DNA of 64,000 nucleotides, taken from NCBI GenBank assembly GCA_018820315.1, contig JAHJOQ010000134.1, positions 1 to 64,000 on the forward strand, read 5' to 3'. The notes under the pieces are model-generated. The model saw only the letters and a program-made list of their open reading frames with translations. It searched no databases and was not told the DNA's origin. Shown here piece after piece: positions 3,629 through 37,089 of the stretch (its first letter is position 1; the number at the start of each line of letters is the position of its first letter). This stretch comes from Candidatus Zixiibacteriota bacterium (GTDB taxonomy: Bacteria; Zixibacteria; MSB-5A5; JAABVY01; JAHJOQ01). The position numbers and the translations under genes are program-made.

Positions 3629-4012
3629 ATGAGGGGATCACTGTTACTGTTGACGATGCTGGCATTCCTGGTCGTTGGCTGCTCTTCGACTCAGCAAAGT
3701 CACGACATAATCATAGTCAAGGACTCCGGCTATGGATACTCTGCAGACAATCCCATAAATTGTGGGGGCGGAATCAATGGCGAGCGGAAGTATATCGCAA
3801 AACTGAGGGGACCTGAAGGCCAGCGGATCAGAGCAGATCGGTTGGCGAATTGCTGCCACTTCAAACTGCCCGGCAAGAGCTTCAAGAAAAGTGGATTTAT
3901 CTCACGCTATGAGGTCCATTATGACGGCATTTCTCAACCAGTTGTGATTTACCTGAATGGGTTTTTGCGCGCTCCGGTGAGAGCTCCCGGAGGATTCGCC
4001 ATCGCTGATTGA
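3629..4012 (+). CDS. Small lipoprotein of unknown function, 127 aa
   Basis: Not recognised. The N-terminus MRGSLLLLTMLAFLVVGCSS is a type II signal peptide with lipobox VVGC, so the mature protein should be lipid-anchored at Cys18. The mature part of about 110 residues has three further cysteines (NCGGG and a CC pair in LANCCHF) and a YEVHYDG segment, which suggests a small disulfide-stabilised beta domain. AGGGAG precedes the ATG. It is transcribed alone and ends in a strong terminator 25 bp later. Confidence 0.7.
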   Translation: MRGSLLLLTMLAFLVVGCSSTQQSHDIIIVKDSGYGYSADNPINCGGGINGERKYIAKLRGPEGQRIRADRLANCCHFKLPGKSFKKSGFISRYEVHYDGISQPVVIYLNGFLRAPVRAPGGFAIAD

Positions 4013-4036
4013 GAATGAGATTCTGGATGAGATTAG

Positions 4037-4065
4037 ACGCACCCGTCTTATGGGTGCGTTTTTCT
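4037..4065 (+). terminator. Rho-independent terminator
   Basis: Stem ACGCACCC (4037-4044) and GGGTGCGT (4052-4059), loop of 7 nt, then TTTTTCTT. It follows the lipoprotein gene. Confidence 0.92.
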
Positions 4066-4119
4066 TATGGTGTCGTCAGAGTTCACATCCTGGCGGGTCT
4101 CTGAAATGATTAGTGCGCG

Positions 4120-4148
4120 AATCGGGCAGAAAGGGATTCCCGCCCGCG
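4120..4148. repeat. REP-like hairpin, family B, copy 1
   Basis: ATCGGGCAGAAAGGGATTCC followed by CGCCCGCG. It is nearly identical in layout to 62394-62418 after nusB, and its ends are complementary (CGGGC and GCCCG). Intergenic, function unknown. Confidence 0.5.
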
Positions 4149-4247
4149 CACGAAATCGCCTCTATTTCAATAATGATTGACATATCAGCCAGCGTGAAGT
4201 ATATGCCATTGGCGATCGCGCGATTTGATTTTCTCAAGGAGAACGGC

Positions 4248-4955
4248 ATGACACCGAGAGCAGATTTCGACGGCTTCCCAAGAGATTGTGTGAAATTCTA
4301 CGAAGGGCTCAAGAAGAACAATTCAAGAGTGTGGTTTGATGATCACAGGACAGACTACGATCAGTTCGTCATGGCACCGGCGAGAGATTTCGTGGTCGCG
4401 CTCGGTACACGGCTGAGAAAGATCGTGCCTCGCATCCATGCCGAGCCGCACGTAAATAAGTCGATATTTCGTATTAATCGCGATGTCAGATTCAGTGCGG
4501 ACAAATTGCCGTACAAGACGCATCTCGGCCTCTGGTTCTGGGAGGGGGATGCCAGACGGATGGAGTGCTCCGGATTCTACTTCCATCTCGATCCGCCGCG
4601 CATGTGGCTCGGTGTCGGCATGTATACGTTTCCGCCGCATCTGCTTGAAGAGTATCGCAATTCCTGTGTGCACGATATCTATGGCAAAGAGCTGACTCGA
4701 ATTGTCGCAAAGGCATCGAAGGTTCCCGGCACGTCGATCGGTCGGGAGAACTACAAGAGAGTTCCGCGCGGATTCGACCCGGATCACAGGAATGCTGATC
4801 TGCTGCGCATGAATGGCTTTCATGCCGGTATTGATATTAGGATTCCAAAAGAGATATTTACGCCGAAGGCAGTTGATTTTTGCTATGACAAGCTAAGACC
4901 ATATTTGCCGGTTCACAAGTGGCTGGTGGCGATGACCGAGCGAGCGGCGAATTAG
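4248..4955 (+). CDS. DUF2461 family protein, 235 aa
   Basis: Member of the DUF2461 / TIGR02453 family, whose biochemical function is not established. Recognisable family segments are FYEGLKKNNSRVWFDDHR, the phrase NKSIFRINRDVRFS, DKLPYKTHLGLWFW, and the C-terminal KEIFTPKAVDFCYDKLRPYL. The length is typical for the family. The ATG at 4248 has AAGGAGA 6 bp upstream. The longer in-frame start at 4113 overlaps a repeat element and lacks a ribosome-binding site. It is a monocistronic gene between a terminator and the restriction-modification locus. Confidence 0.82.
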   Translation: MTPRADFDGFPRDCVKFYEGLKKNNSRVWFDDHRTDYDQFVMAPARDFVVALGTRLRKIVPRIHAEPHVNKSIFRINRDVRFSADKLPYKTHLGLWFWEGDARRMECSGFYFHLDPPRMWLGVGMYTFPPHLLEEYRNSCVHDIYGKELTRIVAKASKVPGTSIGRENYKRVPRGFDPDHRNADLLRMNGFHAGIDIRIPKEIFTPKAVDFCYDKLRPYLPVHKWLVAMTERAAN

Positions 4956-5052
4956 TATGTCTGGTGCGCACCTGGAAAGCCAAATGCGCACAGGTCAGAC
5001 AGAACAGAAGCATGGCCGGGCAGAACTAACGAGGGGACTATGGAGTTTTTAG

Positions 5053-5087
5053 TTGACAGATTATAATCTGTGTTAAGATTGCAATCT
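5053..5087 (+). promoter_or_regulatory. Methylase promoter with two GATNNNNATC palindromes
   Basis: Two palindromes, AGATTATAATCT (5058-5069, extendable to 16 bp) and AGATTGCAATCT (5076-5087), lie 18 bp apart centre to centre. Each holds a GATNNNNATC site (5059-5068 and 5077-5086). TTGACA at 5053-5058 could be a -35 box. A perfect TATAAT sits inside the first palindrome (5062-5067). Either way the sites overlap the core promoter, about 45-70 bp before the methylase ATG. Confidence 0.7.
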
Positions 5088-5128
5088 CATATGGCACTGA
5101 TGTCTACACTACTACGAGGGTATCAAGG

Positions 5129-7156
5129 ATGAAGAACGAGAACACTCTCTTGAAGCAGTTCAATGTAGGACTGCTGGATATGCGGGAACTCTTCCATAAG
5201 TCAGGCAGACTAGATGATTCTAACTCTAAGCTCGACGAGGTCACAAAACTACTCTGCCTAGAGATCGCATCGGTACGAGATCCAGAGTCGAGGGTACCTA
5301 GCTTAAAGGAGATTCTAGAGAAGCACCACTGCGGTCACGGTCTTGTCTCTTCCTTAAACGCTGCACTCTCTTTGGCTGCAAAAAGTGAGACACTCCGAAA
5401 CTACGATGGAGGATCACTCCTCGGACCGAACCCCAAATTCAATATTGCCGAATCAGAAGAAGCTCTGGCGAGGGGACTCGCGCAGATCGTCCTTCAATCT
5501 TTTAATGGGTATTTGAGGGGAAGCAACGGCTCAGAGTCGTTTGAATTTCTTAATGAGGCCTTCTGTCATTTCATAAGAGACAATTTCCGACAGAACATCG
5601 AAGACGCGCAGTATATGACCCCGCCAGAAGTAGTCAATTTCATGGTGGATTTGGGGATAGTCCGACTCAGAGGCAAGAGGTTCACTAATTCGAAGCCTCC
5701 TATCATCTGCGATCCTTCGTGCGGCGTTGGTTCATTCCTTGCTCAATTTTATCGAGCATGGACCGTGAAAGAAAGGATGAGTTCATGTCCTATTTTGGTC
5801 GGACAGGACAAAGTCGATAAGATGGCACGTCTGAGCCTGTTGAATCTATCCCTCTTTGGCATCGAAAATCCGAAGATATATCGAGGCAATTCGCTTGTTG
5901 CTAGTTCGCCGTTGGACGCATATTCGCAGAAGTGCGATCTAATTCTCACCAATCCACCATTTGGTGCTCGCTTTGAAAGTTCCGATCTGGCGTTTCATAG
6001 TCTAGAGTACTTTCCATTCCTCCACAACTATATTCAGAGTCGGGGAGGGTTGATTGACTCTGAACTTCTCTTCCTTGATCGGTACCTGAGTCTTCTTAAA
6101 CCAGGCGGGACAGTTTTGGCCGTCGTTCCTGATTCCGTGATCTCTTCATCGGGACTACCTTCCTATTTGCGCGGGCAATTACACGAGCACTGGACTATTC
6201 GCTCCATTACAGAACTGCCAGCTGTTACATTTGCACAGGCAGGGACGAGAACGAAGACCTGCATCCTTGAGGTTGAGAAGAAAAAGCCAGAAGGCAAGGC
6301 TGCATTGATGGGAAAGGTGCTGAGTCTAGGTTTTGAGGTTTCTTCAAAAAAAGGTGTTCCGTACAAGAAAGCAGAAGGTATGAATGCTTTAGAACCTCTG
6401 TTTGATGCAATGTCCAGCTTCACACAAGAAAGCAACTCGATTTCCTGCTTCAAGATAGTCGCTGATTCCCCCTCCTGCGTTGCGGTTGCCCCCAGTTTCC
6501 TAACCGATGAAAGTTGGACACCATCGCACTATTCGTCGGATCGTCTTAGAACGCTTCAGCAAATTGAAGGCCTGGCAAACGATGAAGAGTTTGAAGTACA
6601 CTCTCTTGAGTCGCTTGTTAACTTAACCTCGAAGTCGAGGAGAGGGATTCGTGAGGCAAAATCTCAGAAATGTATCAGCGTTCTCCACGTCGGAGACTTC
6701 GGATCGCTAAACGTAAGTGAACTGATCGCGTATGAGCCGAAAACCCCGGGCAAGCCATGTGAAGCAGGTGACATTCTGTTCTCGAAGATTAATCCTAGAA
6801 TACCGAGAGTCTTGGTGGTCCCAAACATGCCCTTTGAACTCACATGCTCAACAGAATTTGAAGTGATGAGGCCTAAATCAGGACACAACCCATATGAGAT
6901 TATGTTATTGCTCCTGTCTGACTATGCGCAGAACCAGATTCGCTCTCTGACATGTGGAACCTCTTCCTCTCACAATCGGATTAAGACAAGGGAGCTTCTG
7001 TCAATAAGATTGGCCATTCCTCGAACAGGCACAGTCAAGCGAACAGCGTACGATGATGCTGTGAAGGCGTTTGAAACGGCAAACATCCGTCTAAATGAAT
7101 CGAATACTTCACTACATGAGACTTGGAGTGGGCTCAACGATATGTTGGTAGTCTAG
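5129..7156 (+). CDS. N6-adenine DNA methyltransferase fused to a specificity domain, 675 aa
   Basis: Modification enzyme of a restriction-modification system. The N-terminal third is HsdM-like (helical region, then QYMTPPEVVNFMVDLG). The catalytic domain has SAM motif I DPSCGVGSF (near residue 195) and motif IV LTNPPFG (near 275). The C-terminal 250 residues look like a type I HsdS half: a target-recognition stretch, ILFSKINPRIPRVLVV and the closing GTSSSHNRIKTRELLSIRLAIP-type block (quoted in parts: GTSSSHNRI, LLSIRLAIP). M and S functions are therefore in one chain, as in type IIG-like gamma methylases. One recognition domain per subunit fits a dimer reading an interrupted palindrome. GAGGG lies 8 bp before the ATG. 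The stop codon shares CTAG with that of the convergent endonuclease gene. Confidence 0.9.
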   Translation: MKNENTLLKQFNVGLLDMRELFHKSGRLDDSNSKLDEVTKLLCLEIASVRDPESRVPSLKEILEKHHCGHGLVSSLNAALSLAAKSETLRNYDGGSLLGPNPKFNIAESEEALARGLAQIVLQSFNGYLRGSNGSESFEFLNEAFCHFIRDNFRQNIEDAQYMTPPEVVNFMVDLGIVRLRGKRFTNSKPPIICDPSCGVGSFLAQFYRAWTVKERMSSCPILVGQDKVDKMARLSLLNLSLFGIENPKIYRGNSLVASSPLDAYSQKCDLILTNPPFGARFESSDLAFHSLEYFPFLHNYIQSRGGLIDSELLFLDRYLSLLKPGGTVLAVVPDSVISSSGLPSYLRGQLHEHWTIRSITELPAVTFAQAGTRTKTCILEVEKKKPEGKAALMGKVLSLGFEVSSKKGVPYKKAEGMNALEPLFDAMSSFTQESNSISCFKIVADSPSCVAVAPSFLTDESWTPSHYSSDRLRTLQQIEGLANDEEFEVHSLESLVNLTSKSRRGIREAKSQKCISVLHVGDFGSLNVSELIAYEPKTPGKPCEAGDILFSKINPRIPRVLVVPNMPFELTCSTEFEVMRPKSGHNPYEIMLLLLSDYAQNQIRSLTCGTSSSHNRIKTRELLSIRLAIPRTGTVKRTAYDDAVKAFETANIRLNESNTSLHETWSGLNDMLVV

Positions 7157-7800
7157 CCTTCGGATGTAATGCAGGCACCCCTGGTCATTACCACTTCATT
7201 GTAAGTGGTGCAGGAGAATAGACCATTATCTATGCGCGCCTCGAATAGGAGTGGATACTTGAGATGTCCACAATTGTTTCTGAAAACGTTCCTATCAAGG
7301 TTTCGAGGCGGATGCAGCTGAAAATTGTTACTCTTTATTATCCCTTCTTCACGTTGATGATACCAAGCTCCAGCTATCTTCCGGAACTCTACATCGTGTT
7401 GGGTCCTCACTACCCAGATACGACAGCGCTTATGACCTGTTTTCTCCGTCATGTCCCACATCACAAAGAACAAGTATGGCATGGAATCCAAAGAACTCAG
7501 CGAATCAGCGGTTGATGCATGTGTTCCTGCTTTGATGCAGCCGTTGAAACGGGGTGTGTCAATCGCATCCCAGCAATTCGCCCCCTTCACGTCCGATCCA
7601 TCCTCCAGATCCGGTCCCTTCTTTCTTGAGTATCCCTGTATACCGGTCAATGCGCTGACGATAATTTGCGACCAACCCCGTGTATCTGTGGGATGGGGAT
7701 GGGCGTACTTATCTGCGTACGGCTTTATTTCTGTGTACGCATCGTAATGAAGCTGAAGCAGCTGCAAGGTCTCGACTAGTCTCTCCTCCTGTGGCATCAT
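7153..7800 (-). CDS. MamI-like type II restriction endonuclease
   Basis: Predicted nuclease partner of the convergent methylase. From recall of the family, the block GPDLEDGSDVKGANCWDAID then TPRFNG resembles MamI restriction endonucleases. PD...D-V-K fits a PD-(D/E)xK metal-dependent active site. Later segments are YLFFVMWD and RCRIWVVRT. The longest frame begins at 7878 with TTG, but that TTG is the -35 box of a promoter. The double ATG at 7800/7797 is the better start, preceded by AGGGA, giving 216 or 215 aa. The gene is convergent with the methylase and overlaps it by 4 bp at the shared CTAG. Assignment to MamI is from memory. A PD-(D/E)xK nuclease of another family is the main alternative. 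Confidence 0.7.
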   Translation of the reverse strand: MMPQEERLVETLQLLQLHYDAYTEIKPYADKYAHPHPTDTRGWSQIIVSALTGIQGYSRKKGPDLEDGSDVKGANCWDAIDTPRFNGCIKAGTHASTADSLSSLDSMPYLFFVMWDMTEKTGHKRCRIWVVRTQHDVEFRKIAGAWYHQREEGIIKSNNFQLHPPRNLDRNVFRNNCGHLKYPLLFEARIDNGLFSCTTYNEVVMTRGACITSEG

Positions 7801-7828
7801 TCGTCCCTGTTTACGGCTGATACATTCT

Positions 7829-7878
7829 GATACCGATCTCTCTCCGGAGAATATACACAGCCTGAAAACCGATGTCAA
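7829..7878 (-). promoter_or_regulatory. Endonuclease promoter with GATNNNNATC at the transcript start
   Basis: -35 TTGACA (7873-7878), 17-bp spacer, -10 TATATT (7850-7855), all on the minus strand, with a predicted start near 7843. A GATNNNNATC site (GAT-ACCG-ATC) lies at 7829-7838, about +5 to +14. This matches the two sites in the methylase promoter. Confidence 0.7.
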
Positions 7879-7951
7879 TAGGCGCTGGGGCGATCACCCC
7901 TTTAGTATCAAAGCATCAAGGAGCAAGCGGCTGGGCACCCGGAACATATGT

Positions 7952-7974
7952 GTCAGGATCGTGCTAATCCTGAC
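7952..7974. repeat. REP-like palindrome, family A (divergent copy)
   Basis: GTCAGGAT-cgtgcta-ATCCTGAC, an 8-bp stem related to the palindromes at 52193, 52478 and 53034. It sits just after the symporter stop codon and has no T-run. Confidence 0.5.
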
Positions 7975-7984
7975 ATACATTAGT

Positions 7985-9196
7985 TCATCTAATCTCTTTC
8001 GTCTGTGCAATCACCGCTGCGCCAACCGAATCGCCCCATACGTTCACAGTCGTGCGGAATCTATCGAGAAACCAATCTATACTCAGGATCATTGCTATAC
8101 CCTCCACCGGCAGCCCAACCGACTGCAGCACCATCACCATCGTCACCAGTCCCGCTTGAGGGATGCCCGCTGCGCCGATTGCCGCGAGATTGGCGGTGAA
8201 GAATATCATTATCTGCTGACCGATTGTCAAATCAATGCCATAAAGCTGCGCGATAAAGATTGCAGCGACAGCTTCGTAGAGCGCCGTCCCATCCATGTTG
8301 ATCGTCGCACCGAGCGGCAGCACGAAACTCGATGACTTGTGACTGACGCCGTTCTTCTCCTCGACACATTCCATCGTAACAGGAAGTGTCGCCGATGACG
8401 ATGCGGTCGAAAAGGCCGTCAGCAGCGCCTGCATCATGTTACCTGCATACTTCACCGGATTCTGCTTGCCAAACCACTTGAGGATCAACGGCAGGACTAT
8501 CATCGCGTGAATCGTCAATCCGATTACGACCGTAATAAAATACTTCCCAACCTTCATGAGTTCGGTGACAAACCCTGCACCGCCCGCTTCGGCAAACCTG
8601 GCCGCTATCAGACCAAATACGCCGAATGGCGCGAGGAGCATCACGAGGTGAACGAACTTCATGACGGCTTCGTTGGCGGCCACGAAGAAATCCTTCAGGG
8701 GCTTCCCCCTCTCCCCCATTGTCGTGACAATGCCGCCGAACACGAGAGAGAAGATAATCAGCGGCAAAACTCTGGTTTCTGACATGGCCGCGACGATGTT
8801 CGATGGAATCATCCCGAGGATGACATCAAAAATGCTGTACTCGCCGGGATGACCGACTTCACTGAGACCGGCCGATGCTGCGGAGCCTACCCCGGGCTGG
8901 ATAATGTTGACCAGTACAATTCCGATCGCTACTGCAATGCCGGTGGTTACAAGATAGTAAGCCAGCGTCTTCGCACCTGTTACACCGAGACGCCTTACAT
9001 CGCCGAGTGATATCACACCCGTGATCATGCTCGTAACGATCAATGGCACCACTATCATTTTGAGCGCATTTAGAAACAGCTCGCCTATCATCCCTGCCCA
9101 CATCATGCGCTCGCCAAGGAACCAACCGAGAACCGAGCCGACTATGATCCCGACGACAATACCGATGATGATGTATCTGTTGACAGCGGGTGACAT
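7985..9196 (-). CDS. Sodium:dicarboxylate/glutamate symporter (DAACS family), 403 aa
   Basis: Inner-membrane transporter importing C4-dicarboxylates or acidic amino acids with Na+ or H+. The family signatures are clear: the serine-rich hairpin ASSSATLPVTMEC, the TM7 motif GATINMDGTALYE (NMDGT binds Na+), and the second re-entrant hairpin AAIGAAGIPQAG. The length is normal. Substrate cannot be fixed; GltP, GltT and DctA share these motifs. The ATG at 9196 lacks a strong Shine-Dalgarno sequence. It is divergent from an FAD oxidoreductase, which may act on an imported amine or amino acid (inference). Confidence 0.93.
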   Translation of the reverse strand: MSPAVNRYIIIGIVVGIIVGSVLGWFLGERMMWAGMIGELFLNALKMIVVPLIVTSMITGVISLGDVRRLGVTGAKTLAYYLVTTGIAVAIGIVLVNIIQPGVGSAASAGLSEVGHPGEYSIFDVILGMIPSNIVAAMSETRVLPLIIFSLVFGGIVTTMGERGKPLKDFFVAANEAVMKFVHLVMLLAPFGVFGLIAARFAEAGGAGFVTELMKVGKYFITVVIGLTIHAMIVLPLILKWFGKQNPVKYAGNMMQALLTAFSTASSSATLPVTMECVEEKNGVSHKSSSFVLPLGATINMDGTALYEAVAAIFIAQLYGIDLTIGQQIMIFFTANLAAIGAAGIPQAGLVTMVMVLQSVGLPVEGIAMILSIDWFLDRFRTTVNVWGDSVGAAVIAQTKEIR

Positions 9197-9270
9197 GATA
9201 TCTACATGTAAGTCGCATCAGTCGGATATACAACAACAATTTCGATCCAGAATTGCACATTCAAAATGCC

Positions 9271-9298
9271 TTGACTTTATGTGCCATTTAGATAGATT
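9271..9298 (+). promoter_or_regulatory. Putative promoter of the FAD oxidoreductase gene
   Basis: TTGACT (9271-9276), 16-bp spacer, TAGATT (9293-9298), 31 bp before the start codon. It fits the promoter style of the window. Confidence 0.45.
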
Positions 9299-9328
9299 TA
9301 CCGCGAATTCAACAACGGGGATTGAGTC

Positions 9329-10477
9329 ATGAAGTCTGGTGCAGAAGCGATTATAGTTGGTGGCGGCATCGTGGGAGCAGCGATTGCGTTCTATCTCGAA
9401 AAGCTTGGGATGCGCGATGTTGTCATTATCGAGAAGGACAGATTTATCGGCGCGGGCGCTACTGCCAAATGTGCCGGAGGTATAAGAGCCCAGTTCTCAT
9501 CTGAAATAAACATAAAGATGTCGCTGATGTCGGAGAACCTTCTGGAGGCTTTCCAGGATGAGACCGGCGAGGAGGGCATATTCGATCAATGCGGATATCT
9601 CTTCATGGTTTCCACCGACGAGCATGAGGACATATTCCGCAAGAATATGGATCTGCAACTGGCCAACGGTGTGCCGGTCGAGTGGTTGACTCCTGACGAT
9701 ATTCGCGAATTTGCTCCCAATGTTCGATTAGACGACATACTGGGGGGCACATTTTGTCACAAGGATGGAATCGGCGATCCGCATGTTTTCACACACGGTT
9801 ATGCTAAGGCTGCCAAGAAACTTGGTGCTGTGGTCGAAGTCGAGACTGAAGTCACCGGCATCAAAGTAGACAACGGAAAGATAACAGGTGTTTCTACGAA
9901 TAAAGGCGACATTGCCTGCAAGATAGTCATTAATGCTGCCGGGCCGAGTTCAGCATCAATCGGAAAGATGGTCGGCGTAGACCTCCCGATTGTGCCTGTC
10001 AAGAGACAGATCAGCACAACTTCACCACTTGCTTGGCTTGACCATCGATTTCCTATGGTCGTCGACGTCGCATCGGGACTCTACTGTCATCGTGAATCGG
10101 GAGGATTGCTGCTCGGCTGGGCCGACCCGGATACGGCACCGGGATTCGATGAGTCACTCGATCCTGATTACACTGATGAAATCATTATGAAGGCAATGGA
10201 TCGAATCCCCATTCTTGAAGAGGCTGGAATAGCCACGAGCTGGGCTGGGCTGTATTCTGTGACGCCGGATCACAAGGCCATTCTAGGGGTGGTGCCGGGC
10301 GTTGAAGGTTTCATCGTTGCGGCCGGATTCTCCGGTCACGGCTTCATGCACGCACCGGCAGTCGGCAAGTTGATTGCAGAACTGGTCACGAGTGAAAGTT
10401 GTTCAATTGATCTCACCCCGCTCTCATTCGAGCGTTTCAAGGAATCGACCAAGGAACTTGAAAAAGTGGTAATCTGA
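9329..10477 (+). CDS. FAD-dependent oxidoreductase, DAO family (sarcosine oxidase beta-like), 382 aa
   Basis: Flavoprotein of the D-amino-acid/sarcosine oxidase superfamily, oxidising the C-N bond of a small amine or amino acid. The N-terminal Rossmann motif is AIIVGGGIVGAAIAFYLE with acidic IIEKD after it. KCAGGIRAQFSSEIN is typical of sarcosine oxidase beta and related proteins. The C-terminal FAD loop is GFSGHGFMHAPAVGKLIAEL. The length is full. No alpha, gamma or delta sarcosine-oxidase subunits are nearby, so it may be a single-subunit oxidase or dehydrogenase with unknown substrate. The next gene follows after 18 bp and is probably co-transcribed. Confidence 0.85.
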   Translation: MKSGAEAIIVGGGIVGAAIAFYLEKLGMRDVVIIEKDRFIGAGATAKCAGGIRAQFSSEINIKMSLMSENLLEAFQDETGEEGIFDQCGYLFMVSTDEHEDIFRKNMDLQLANGVPVEWLTPDDIREFAPNVRLDDILGGTFCHKDGIGDPHVFTHGYAKAAKKLGAVVEVETEVTGIKVDNGKITGVSTNKGDIACKIVINAAGPSSASIGKMVGVDLPIVPVKRQISTTSPLAWLDHRFPMVVDVASGLYCHRESGGLLLGWADPDTAPGFDESLDPDYTDEIIMKAMDRIPILEEAGIATSWAGLYSVTPDHKAILGVVPGVEGFIVAAGFSGHGFMHAPAVGKLIAELVTSESCSIDLTPLSFERFKESTKELEKVVI

Positions 10478-35217: not shown

Positions 35218-37089
35218 TTAGGGATTGATCAGCCTATTGAAATAGATTCTGATAAGCCGGGGGTTTACTGTTGCAATATCAATGTCACCGTCGTTGTCGA
35301 AATCGGCTGGGCAAATGCTGGTGAGTCCCCCAGTTGTATAATCCTCTGGAACAACATAGTAGTCTGCAGGTTGGAAAGAACCGTCGCCTAACCCCGGGAG
35401 AAAACTGAATCCGGAATATCCGGGGCCGACCAAGTCAGTCTTCAGGTCATTGTCCAGGTCAATAGCTTCTATTCTATCGGTGTTAATGTCTGCTGCCACG
35501 AGGCTACGGTTGTCAAATATTAGACTACCGGCACCGTCATTTAAGTATACAGACAGATAAGCCTGATAGTCCATAGTTTCAGTCGCTAACAGATCGATAG
35601 AATTGTCACCATTCAAAAGAGTTGCCGTAATGGTGTACGCTTGAATCCCGGGAAAGTGCTCAACGTCGTCGCTAAAGGTGCCATTGCCGTTGTTCGTCAA
35701 CTTTACAAGACTCCATCCCGTAGCGATCAAAAGGTCGTTTATACCTCTATTGTCAATGTCCGCGGCTTCGATATCATATGCTGGTGTGCCAGTAACGTAT
35801 GATTGGGGACCGGAAAACGCGCCGTATCCATTATTCAGCAGGACCAATACATTGTTGGTATCAACGTGGTGGACGCACGCGATATCATCTATAGCATCGC
35901 CGTTCAGGTCTGCAGCGACAAATGAATAGGACGTATAGCCGATTGGGTAATCAACATGTGCTGCAAATGTGCCGTTGCCACTATTCAACAAAATCGAGAT
36001 GGAATTGGAGAACTCATTCATAGTCACAATATCGTCATACTGATCAGCATTAAGTCGAGCGGACAGTATGAGTATCGGCCATGAAGCGGTACGCATATCC
36101 AGTGAGTGAGTTAGATTGCCCTGCCCATCGTTTTCAATCAGCGCCACCATCGACTCGCCCTCCCGGATAACCGCGAGATCGACATCGCCGTCATGATCAA
36201 AATCTGCGGCGGTCGCATAGGATCCCCAGAACTCGACCTCCAGCGTGCTGGGTGAGATTACATCAAACATATCTTCTTCGGCCAGGTATGTAGTTGCGCT
36301 ATCTGAGTTGGATAAAGATGACCATTGGTTGGGGTGTTCATCACGGGAACGTATCGCGAAGTAGTATGTCTGGCCGGGCCACAGGTCGCCAATGAGCAGG
36401 CTCTCGTGGGTCCCTGCCGGGCTTGGTACGAGGTCGTACCACCACTCCAGATGATTCGTATATTCCCAGTTCTGGATGTTGATAGGTTCATGGTAGTAGC
36501 GGATATCATACTGGAATGCTCCCTCGGTGGGGCCATCGTCGGCGGGAGCAGTCCACTCCAATAATACCGAATATCGTGAAGCTCGAGTGACTATCAGATC
36601 GGTGATTGCCGCAGGCGCTGAATTGTCAGTGTCAGGAGACCCGGTTTTCTGTATGACGATATTGGAAAGTGCCGTGACTTTGTCGTAACCCTCCAGCCTC
36701 GTTGCAAAATAGTACTGCGTACCAGAATACAGATTACTAACTTTGAAAGTCTCTGTTTCTCCGGTATCCTTCGGATCTATCATCTGGTGAACTATCCGCA
36801 TCGCCGAGGTAAGATTGCTTGTGGATAACGGGAAGTCCGCGTAATAAATTATATAGCCGAATCCCCAATGGTAGTTGTTATCGGTGTCAAAGGTTGATGT
36901 CCAGCTAAGGGTGATAGAGCTATCCGTGACAGCCGTAGCTGCTAAATCAGTGACTGCTGCAGGTGGAGTCTCATCCTGCGGATCATGCTGATTGTTGTTA
37001 TCAAAAGGATTATTGCTCTTGTTCGAGCAACCTGCAATAAGCAGACTGAGGAGCAGAAACAACATTGCAAGGCGTGTGCGTTCTAACAT
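35218..37089 (-). CDS. Lipoprotein with fibronectin type III and FG-GAP/VCBS repeats, 623 aa
   Basis: Surface or secreted adhesion-type protein. A type II signal peptide has lipobox LLIAGC with Cys21. Two fibronectin III domains start at TPPAAVTDLAATAVTDSSIT and SAPAAITDLIVTRASRYSVL. The second half has FG-GAP/VCBS-type repeats of a predicted beta-propeller: DFDHDGDVDLAV, DLNGDAIDDIACV, DIDNRGINDLLIA, DLDNDLKTDLVGPG, DFDNDGDIDIATV. It ends without a dockerin or sorting domain. A good promoter lies upstream (37216-37244). Ligand unknown. Confidence 0.85.
   Translation of the reverse strand: MLERTRLAMLFLLLSLLIAGCSNKSNNPFDNNNQHDPQDETPPAAVTDLAATAVTDSSITLSWTSTFDTDNNYHWGFGYIIYYADFPLSTSNLTSAMRIVHQMIDPKDTGETETFKVSNLYSGTQYYFATRLEGYDKVTALSNIVIQKTGSPDTDNSAPAAITDLIVTRASRYSVLLEWTAPADDGPTEGAFQYDIRYYHEPINIQNWEYTNHLEWWYDLVPSPAGTHESLLIGDLWPGQTYYFAIRSRDEHPNQWSSLSNSDSATTYLAEEDMFDVISPSTLEVEFWGSYATAADFDHDGDVDLAVIREGESMVALIENDGQGNLTHSLDMRTASWPILILSARLNADQYDDIVTMNEFSNSISILLNSGNGTFAAHVDYPIGYTSYSFVAADLNGDAIDDIACVHHVDTNNVLVLLNNGYGAFSGPQSYVTGTPAYDIEAADIDNRGINDLLIATGWSLVKLTNNGNGTFSDDVEHFPGIQAYTITATLLNGDNSIDLLATETMDYQAYLSVYLNDGAGSLIFDNRSLVAADINTDRIEAIDLDNDLKTDLVGPGYSGFSFLPGLGDGSFQPADYYVVPEDYTTGGLTSICPADFDNDGDIDIATVNPRLIRIYFNRLINP

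Follow-up and report, generated by a model that had tools for sequence, protein, structure and literature searches.

The window, which is the whole 64-kb stretch of DNA analysed here, carries a restriction-modification pair that we assign, with a probability of about 0.74, to the MamI/BsaBI kind of Type II systems reading GAT-N4-ATC, and in which the methylase (M) would keep its own production in check by means of its cognate sites in the core promoter of its gene. All three copies of GATNNNNATC (GATN4ATC) are found at the positions assigned to them in the sequence-only reading of this DNA, two in the M promoter (5059–5068 and 5077–5086) and one downstream of the promoter of the restriction endonuclease gene, R (7829–7838). 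The elements of the locus are as follows.

5053–5058, forward strand: putative −35 element TTGACA of the M promoter, read from the sequence
5059–5068, forward strand: own site 1, GATTATAATC, in the spacer and abutting the −35 element; conserved in homologues
5074–5079, forward strand: putative −10 element TAAGAT, read from the sequence, with a TG one base upstream (predicted extended −10)
5077–5086, forward strand: own site 2, GATTGCAATC, which overlaps the −10 element and the presumed transcription start; spacing to site 1, 18 bp
5129–7156, forward strand: methylase gene M~S, 675 aa (Pfam N6_Mtase, PF02384, E 7.6e-25)
7153–7800, reverse strand: restriction endonuclease gene R, RE_MamI family (Pfam PF09567, E 7.6e-41)
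7829–7838, reverse strand: third GATN4ATC copy, roughly at positions +5 to +14 of the R transcript
7878–7850, reverse strand: R promoter, TTGACA-17-TATATT, with 11 of 12 consensus matches

The M and R genes and their promoters

The two sites in front of M, which are cognate according to the specificity predicted for the enzyme, overlap the M core promoter. This promoter is absent from the output of the promoter scan, its spacer being 15 bp, and with a spacer of that length its call in the window is tentative. The placement of the third site relative to the start of the R transcript, as originally proposed, agrees with the confirmed R promoter. An Rfam search of the region 4000–9500 returned nothing.

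The M and R genes are convergent, and their ends overlap at 7153–7156. A controller (C) gene is absent from the locus, as had been claimed, because the gaps preceding M (173 bp) and R (187 bp) are too small for one. Antisense ORFs at the locus have no Pfam match, and a small XRE/HTH_3 gene, as found in C-protein systems, was not found there; with no room and no helix-turn-helix match, a controller in the window was rejected.

The M protein starts with a helical domain, followed by the N6-adenine methylase domain (residues ~140–430), the target-recognition domain (~485–635), and a C-terminal helix (636–673). Its AlphaFold model (pLDDT 83.8, pTM 0.86), with one target-recognition domain and a long C-terminal helix, bears out the description of M as carrying a single fused recognition domain, and the Foldseek matches of the model are gamma-type adenine methylases, such as 7eew, M.BseCI, and StySJI M (Type I M subunits and their relatives). 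With N6_Mtase, a single C-terminal recognition domain, and a predicted dimerization helix in one chain, M is modelled as a fused gamma-type M~S protein. A Pfam search up to E 1 found no helix-turn-helix domain at its N terminus, which sets it apart from methylases of the SsoII type.

The description of the nuclease as MamI-like is confirmed by the match of R to the RE_MamI profile, which scores 140.2 bits (cut-off 25) and spans positions 2–183 of 183. The gene probably starts with the ATG at 7797–7800 (~215 aa) rather than with the TTG at 7878. The protein includes a candidate PD-(D/E)xK-like motif, DLEDGSDVK, with residues D64, D67, S69, and K72 invariant in the alignment. The model of R is confident (pLDDT 91), yet a fold search of the PDB gave no match at E ≤ 0.001, and a solved structure seems to be missing for the RE_MamI family. 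No relative of R was found in the viral contigs, plasmids, and phages searched.

Recurrence of the site in homologous loci

The site is common in this genome, with 2192 copies in 3.777 Mb, or one per 1723 bp, and the previously assumed frequency of about one per 4 kb is too low. The 39 sites counted in the window compare with 38.9 expected after shuffling, and no avoidance of the site is seen in the window. Two sites in the 120 bp upstream of M have a probability of ~0.002 at the genome density and 0.0008 in a Markov model, and at least two sites are present in 0.33% of 120-bp windows across the 64 kb. Of the extended palindrome AGATTNNAATCT, the genome has only four copies, and the M-promoter pair accounts for two of them. 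A single site near the R promoter, in turn, is expected by chance in ~5–9% of cases in 75–150 bp. Of the site density that had been called striking, the pair in the M promoter remains uncommon, whereas the single copy at the R promoter is nothing out of the ordinary.

Another two GATN4ATC sites, exactly 18 bp apart, form a pair at 36177–36204 (36177/36195). This pair lies inside a coding sequence (35218–37089, reverse strand) with FG-GAP-like repeats, and is probably the product of codon-driven chance.

Homologous loci were collected by scanning genome contigs with the alignment of R, which yielded 13 loci picked regardless of sites (L026 is the same locus as L012/L013). GATN4ATC lies just upstream of M in L014–L023. 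The hosts belong to Pseudomonadota, Bacteroidota, Actinomycetota, Acidobacteriota, Bacillota, Latescibacterota, and the phylum of the window itself, at least seven phyla in all; no other member was found in the latter phylum among 133 genomes. An unbiased scan of 832 interrupted palindromes (3 + N0–12 + 3) puts GATN4ATC in first place. The scan covered the 120 bp in front of M at 15 separate loci, among them L013, L024, L025, and L044, which have no site; GATN4ATC is present in 11 of the 15 loci, and the runner-up in 5. When only the 11 site-bearing loci are considered, it likewise leads a list of 21,328 bipartite 3 + 3 words. Conservation of the M-promoter sites in homologous loci, which had been named as a check on the original proposal, is thus observed, and within the main clade the sites are present in 11/13 separate loci.

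The number of sites found upstream of M, 15, compares with 0.49 expected from the densities in the host genomes (14 loci, with densities computed from rounded genome sizes), and Markov models of the 11 site-bearing promoters give an expectation of 0.34 sites; these sums treat the loci as independent, and the tree has long branches between most of them. Once the sites are masked, no two promoters are similar by blastn, except for the near-identical L023 and L031, and because of this lack of similarity only GAT and ATC can be said to be kept. Among the 16 sites, GAT and ATC are constant (by the definition of the search), and N4 and the flanks vary. Even in site 1 of the pair L023/L031, GAT and ATC are retained and two N4 bases differ, as do some flanking bases. 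L031, an out-of-sample locus, also retains the two sites, although it is nearly identical to L023.

That the sites are merely frequent in the genome and have no meaning fits the R-promoter copy and the 36177/36195 pair well, and agrees with both the genomic frequency and the shuffled total for the window. For the M-promoter pair, such an explanation is hardly credible: with ~0.5 sites expected, the site is carried by 11/15 separate M promoters, and this conservation refutes chance.

The motif derived from the M promoters is the same as the published specificity of BsaBI, GAT N4 ATC (PMC3874165), and the original assignment of the site was correct in this respect. The window system itself would, judging from the M promoters, read GATN4ATC, and its nuclease, as a member of RE_MamI, would be expected to cleave GATNN^NNATC.

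The sites cluster 11–96 bp from the start of M. Pairs spaced by 18 or 19 bp are found in the window, L017, L022, L023, and L031, as well as in L015 if its degenerate second copy is counted; six loci have a single exact site, with no conserved partner in any of them except for the degenerate copy in L015. A Bacteroidota-like promoter element, TAATTTTG, is positioned exactly between both sites of L017. The pairs of L022, L023, and L031 directly adjoin the −35 element on its upstream side, and for the sites of L022 and L023, located just upstream of −35, activation is conceivable as well. In L016 and L018–L021, the M and C-R genes are divergent, the controller belongs to HTH_3, and one site lies 11–25 bp before the start of M. 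Five of the 11 site-bearing loci have a C gene, and because these five retain the site, it persists whether a C protein is present or not.

Some of these loci have features of their own. L022, L023, and L031 include two different RE_MamI genes in tandem beside one methylase, one of them window-like (~50% identity to R of the window) and the other of a second type (~30%), which scores 233 bits against the Pfam model, far above the window-like one; two nucleases may share a single protecting methylase. L014 has, before the start of M (~2525–2580), a near-perfect inverted repeat with ~26-bp arms. The repeat has the one GATTACAATC site of this locus at its centre and takes in the ribosome-binding site, and read-through RNA from R could hide the start of M.

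The exceptions are of several kinds. L013 has no site, and because the start of its M overlaps the end of an upstream gene, this methylase may have no promoter of its own. The gene in question, located directly upstream (L013:2694–3422) in this Eisenbacteria system, is integrase-like, which suggests mobility and a shared promoter. L024 and L025 also lack the site; their methylases are diverged (24–26%), and because their recognition domains differ at residues invariant in the site-bearing ones (H520D, E578L, Q603A, T608A, and H615R), they may read another sequence. The out-of-sample loci L044 and L045, which represent one lineage with a C-like gene identified by tblastn similarity, have the same enzyme type but no exact site upstream of M, contrary to the prediction. 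All invariant residues of the recognition domain are present in their M, and L044 retains a one-mismatch version of the site at −27. The RE_MamI proteins encoded in L037 (6359–7300) and L046 (6542–7207) are divergent, and one of them has a zinc-ribbon-like stretch; they lie next to a different N6-adenine methylase of 628–662 aa and possibly form a further RE_MamI subfamily. With both nuclease and M divergent, these two out-of-sample loci do not bear on the site prediction.

Possible modes of control

In an unmodified new cell, the M promoter would be open and M would be made fast. As it accumulates, M would bind and methylate both sites, one between the −35 and −10 elements and the other over −10 and +1, and RNA polymerase would be kept off the promoter, so that M would settle at a low level. 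Repression as the effect of the sites is suggested by their positions and by analogy with known systems. The proposal that sites in both promoters set expression holds in part: those of the M promoter are conserved across distant homologues, whereas the idea that the third site gates the nuclease is unsupported. No site is present upstream of R in any of the C-less relatives (L014, L015, L017, L022, L023, and L031), and one copy is within chance; gating of R was therefore rejected. The copy at 7829–7838 is probably a product of chance, or at most a local feature, and R would be transcribed from a strong, apparently constitutive promoter.

Autorepression of M could be achieved either by the methyl mark itself, blocking RNA polymerase, or by the bound methylase, with an M~S dimer occupying the paired sites like an ordinary repressor on its operator, perhaps cooperatively. 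The latter is a variant of the preferred explanation and not a competitor of it, and we regard it as a tentative option that is less likely than not. The 18–19 bp spacing of the pairs in the window, L017, L022, L023, L031, and the degenerate L015 would suit proteins lying side by side better than marks acting independently, and the single recognition domain with a long C-terminal helix in the model would suit a dimer. However, six loci with one exact site have no conserved partner except for that of L015, fully methylated sites are usually poor ligands, and the mark is held responsible in AhdI and CfrBI. The fixed spacing thus leans slightly towards a bound protein, and precedent towards the methyl mark.

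Two other explanations assign the sites no role in the control of M by its product. According to one of them, which we consider unlikely, the sites are sentinels without a role in transcription, at which the nuclease would cut the M promoter if methylation fails. Provided that R recognises this sequence, it would cleave any unmodified copy at that point, and conservation near M would be accounted for. Cleavage at any other point of the locus would serve equally well, however, and the sites are located on or beside core promoter elements, 11–96 bp from the start of M, with pairs at a fixed spacing. The other, to which we give still less weight, invokes a separate regulator of the host or the locus with a GATN4ATC-like palindromic operator, its likeness to the enzyme site being coincidental. 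The longer palindromes formed by the sites of the window and L022 (AGATTNNAATCT), as well as the A/T flanks in most loci, would agree with such an operator. Nevertheless, the window locus has no regulator gene, the sites recur across many host phyla, whether or not a C gene is present, and the variation of N4 and the flanks around an unchanging GAT and ATC is just the pattern that the enzyme would demand.

Relation to known systems

Judged by analogy, AhdI is the closest known system by enzyme type and LlaDII is the closest by layout. LlaDII, with the specificity GCNGC, has two sites, both of which are needed, and no C gene. It differs from the window system in its enzymes and specificity. The likeness lies in its M promoter, which contains recognition sites of the system itself and the methylation of which affects the M gene only (PMC12707154). 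AhdI, LlaDII, and CfrBI are the systems reported to control M through their own sites (PMC12707154, PMC5333194, PMC3874152). The view that such control is known only for a few unrelated systems is correct as to their number (PMC12707154) and only partly true as to their being unrelated, since the methylase of AhdI is of a related type.

AhdI (GACN5GTC) shares with the window system a bipartite site and a gamma-type N6-adenine methylase related to Type I (PMC12707154), but it encodes a C protein and keeps M and S on separate chains (Type 1 1/2), whereas the window has no C gene, a fused M~S, and a nuclease of the RE_MamI family. CfrBI has its own site in the M promoter, where methylation lowers M transcription (PMC12707154, PMC3978073). 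It differs in having one site over −35 and divergent, overlapping promoters, with R going up when M goes down; M and R of the window are convergent. BsaBI and MamI are close in another sense, since the nuclease family is shared, by Pfam, with MamI and BsaBI reads GAT N4 ATC, although M.BsaBI consists of separate M and S chains (PMC3874165), unlike the single-chain M~S of the window. In SsoII, EcoRII, and MspI, the methylase also represses its own gene (PMC3874152), but through an N-terminal helix-turn-helix and a separate operator, and M of the window has no such domain.

No report of own-site control in the BsaBI/MamI family was found in the literature searched. The principle of control is already known. 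What appears to be new within that literature is that a nuclease family has kept it in many phyla, independently of the C gene. Whether own-site control of M is ancestral and nearly family-wide among the MamI-type fused methylases, in at least seven phyla, with the C protein gained or lost regardless and the recognition sequence consequently readable from the promoters of homologues, is a question on which we consider the odds to be even.

How a new host escapes killing by C-less restriction-modification systems is only partly understood. Own-site control has so far been described system by system, and here it would be shared across a nuclease family in at least seven phyla, in an arrangement that, occurring both with and without C genes, points to a conserved strategy. 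It would then be possible to read the recognition sequence of an enzyme from its own promoters, an aid in predicting the specificities of uncharacterised systems.
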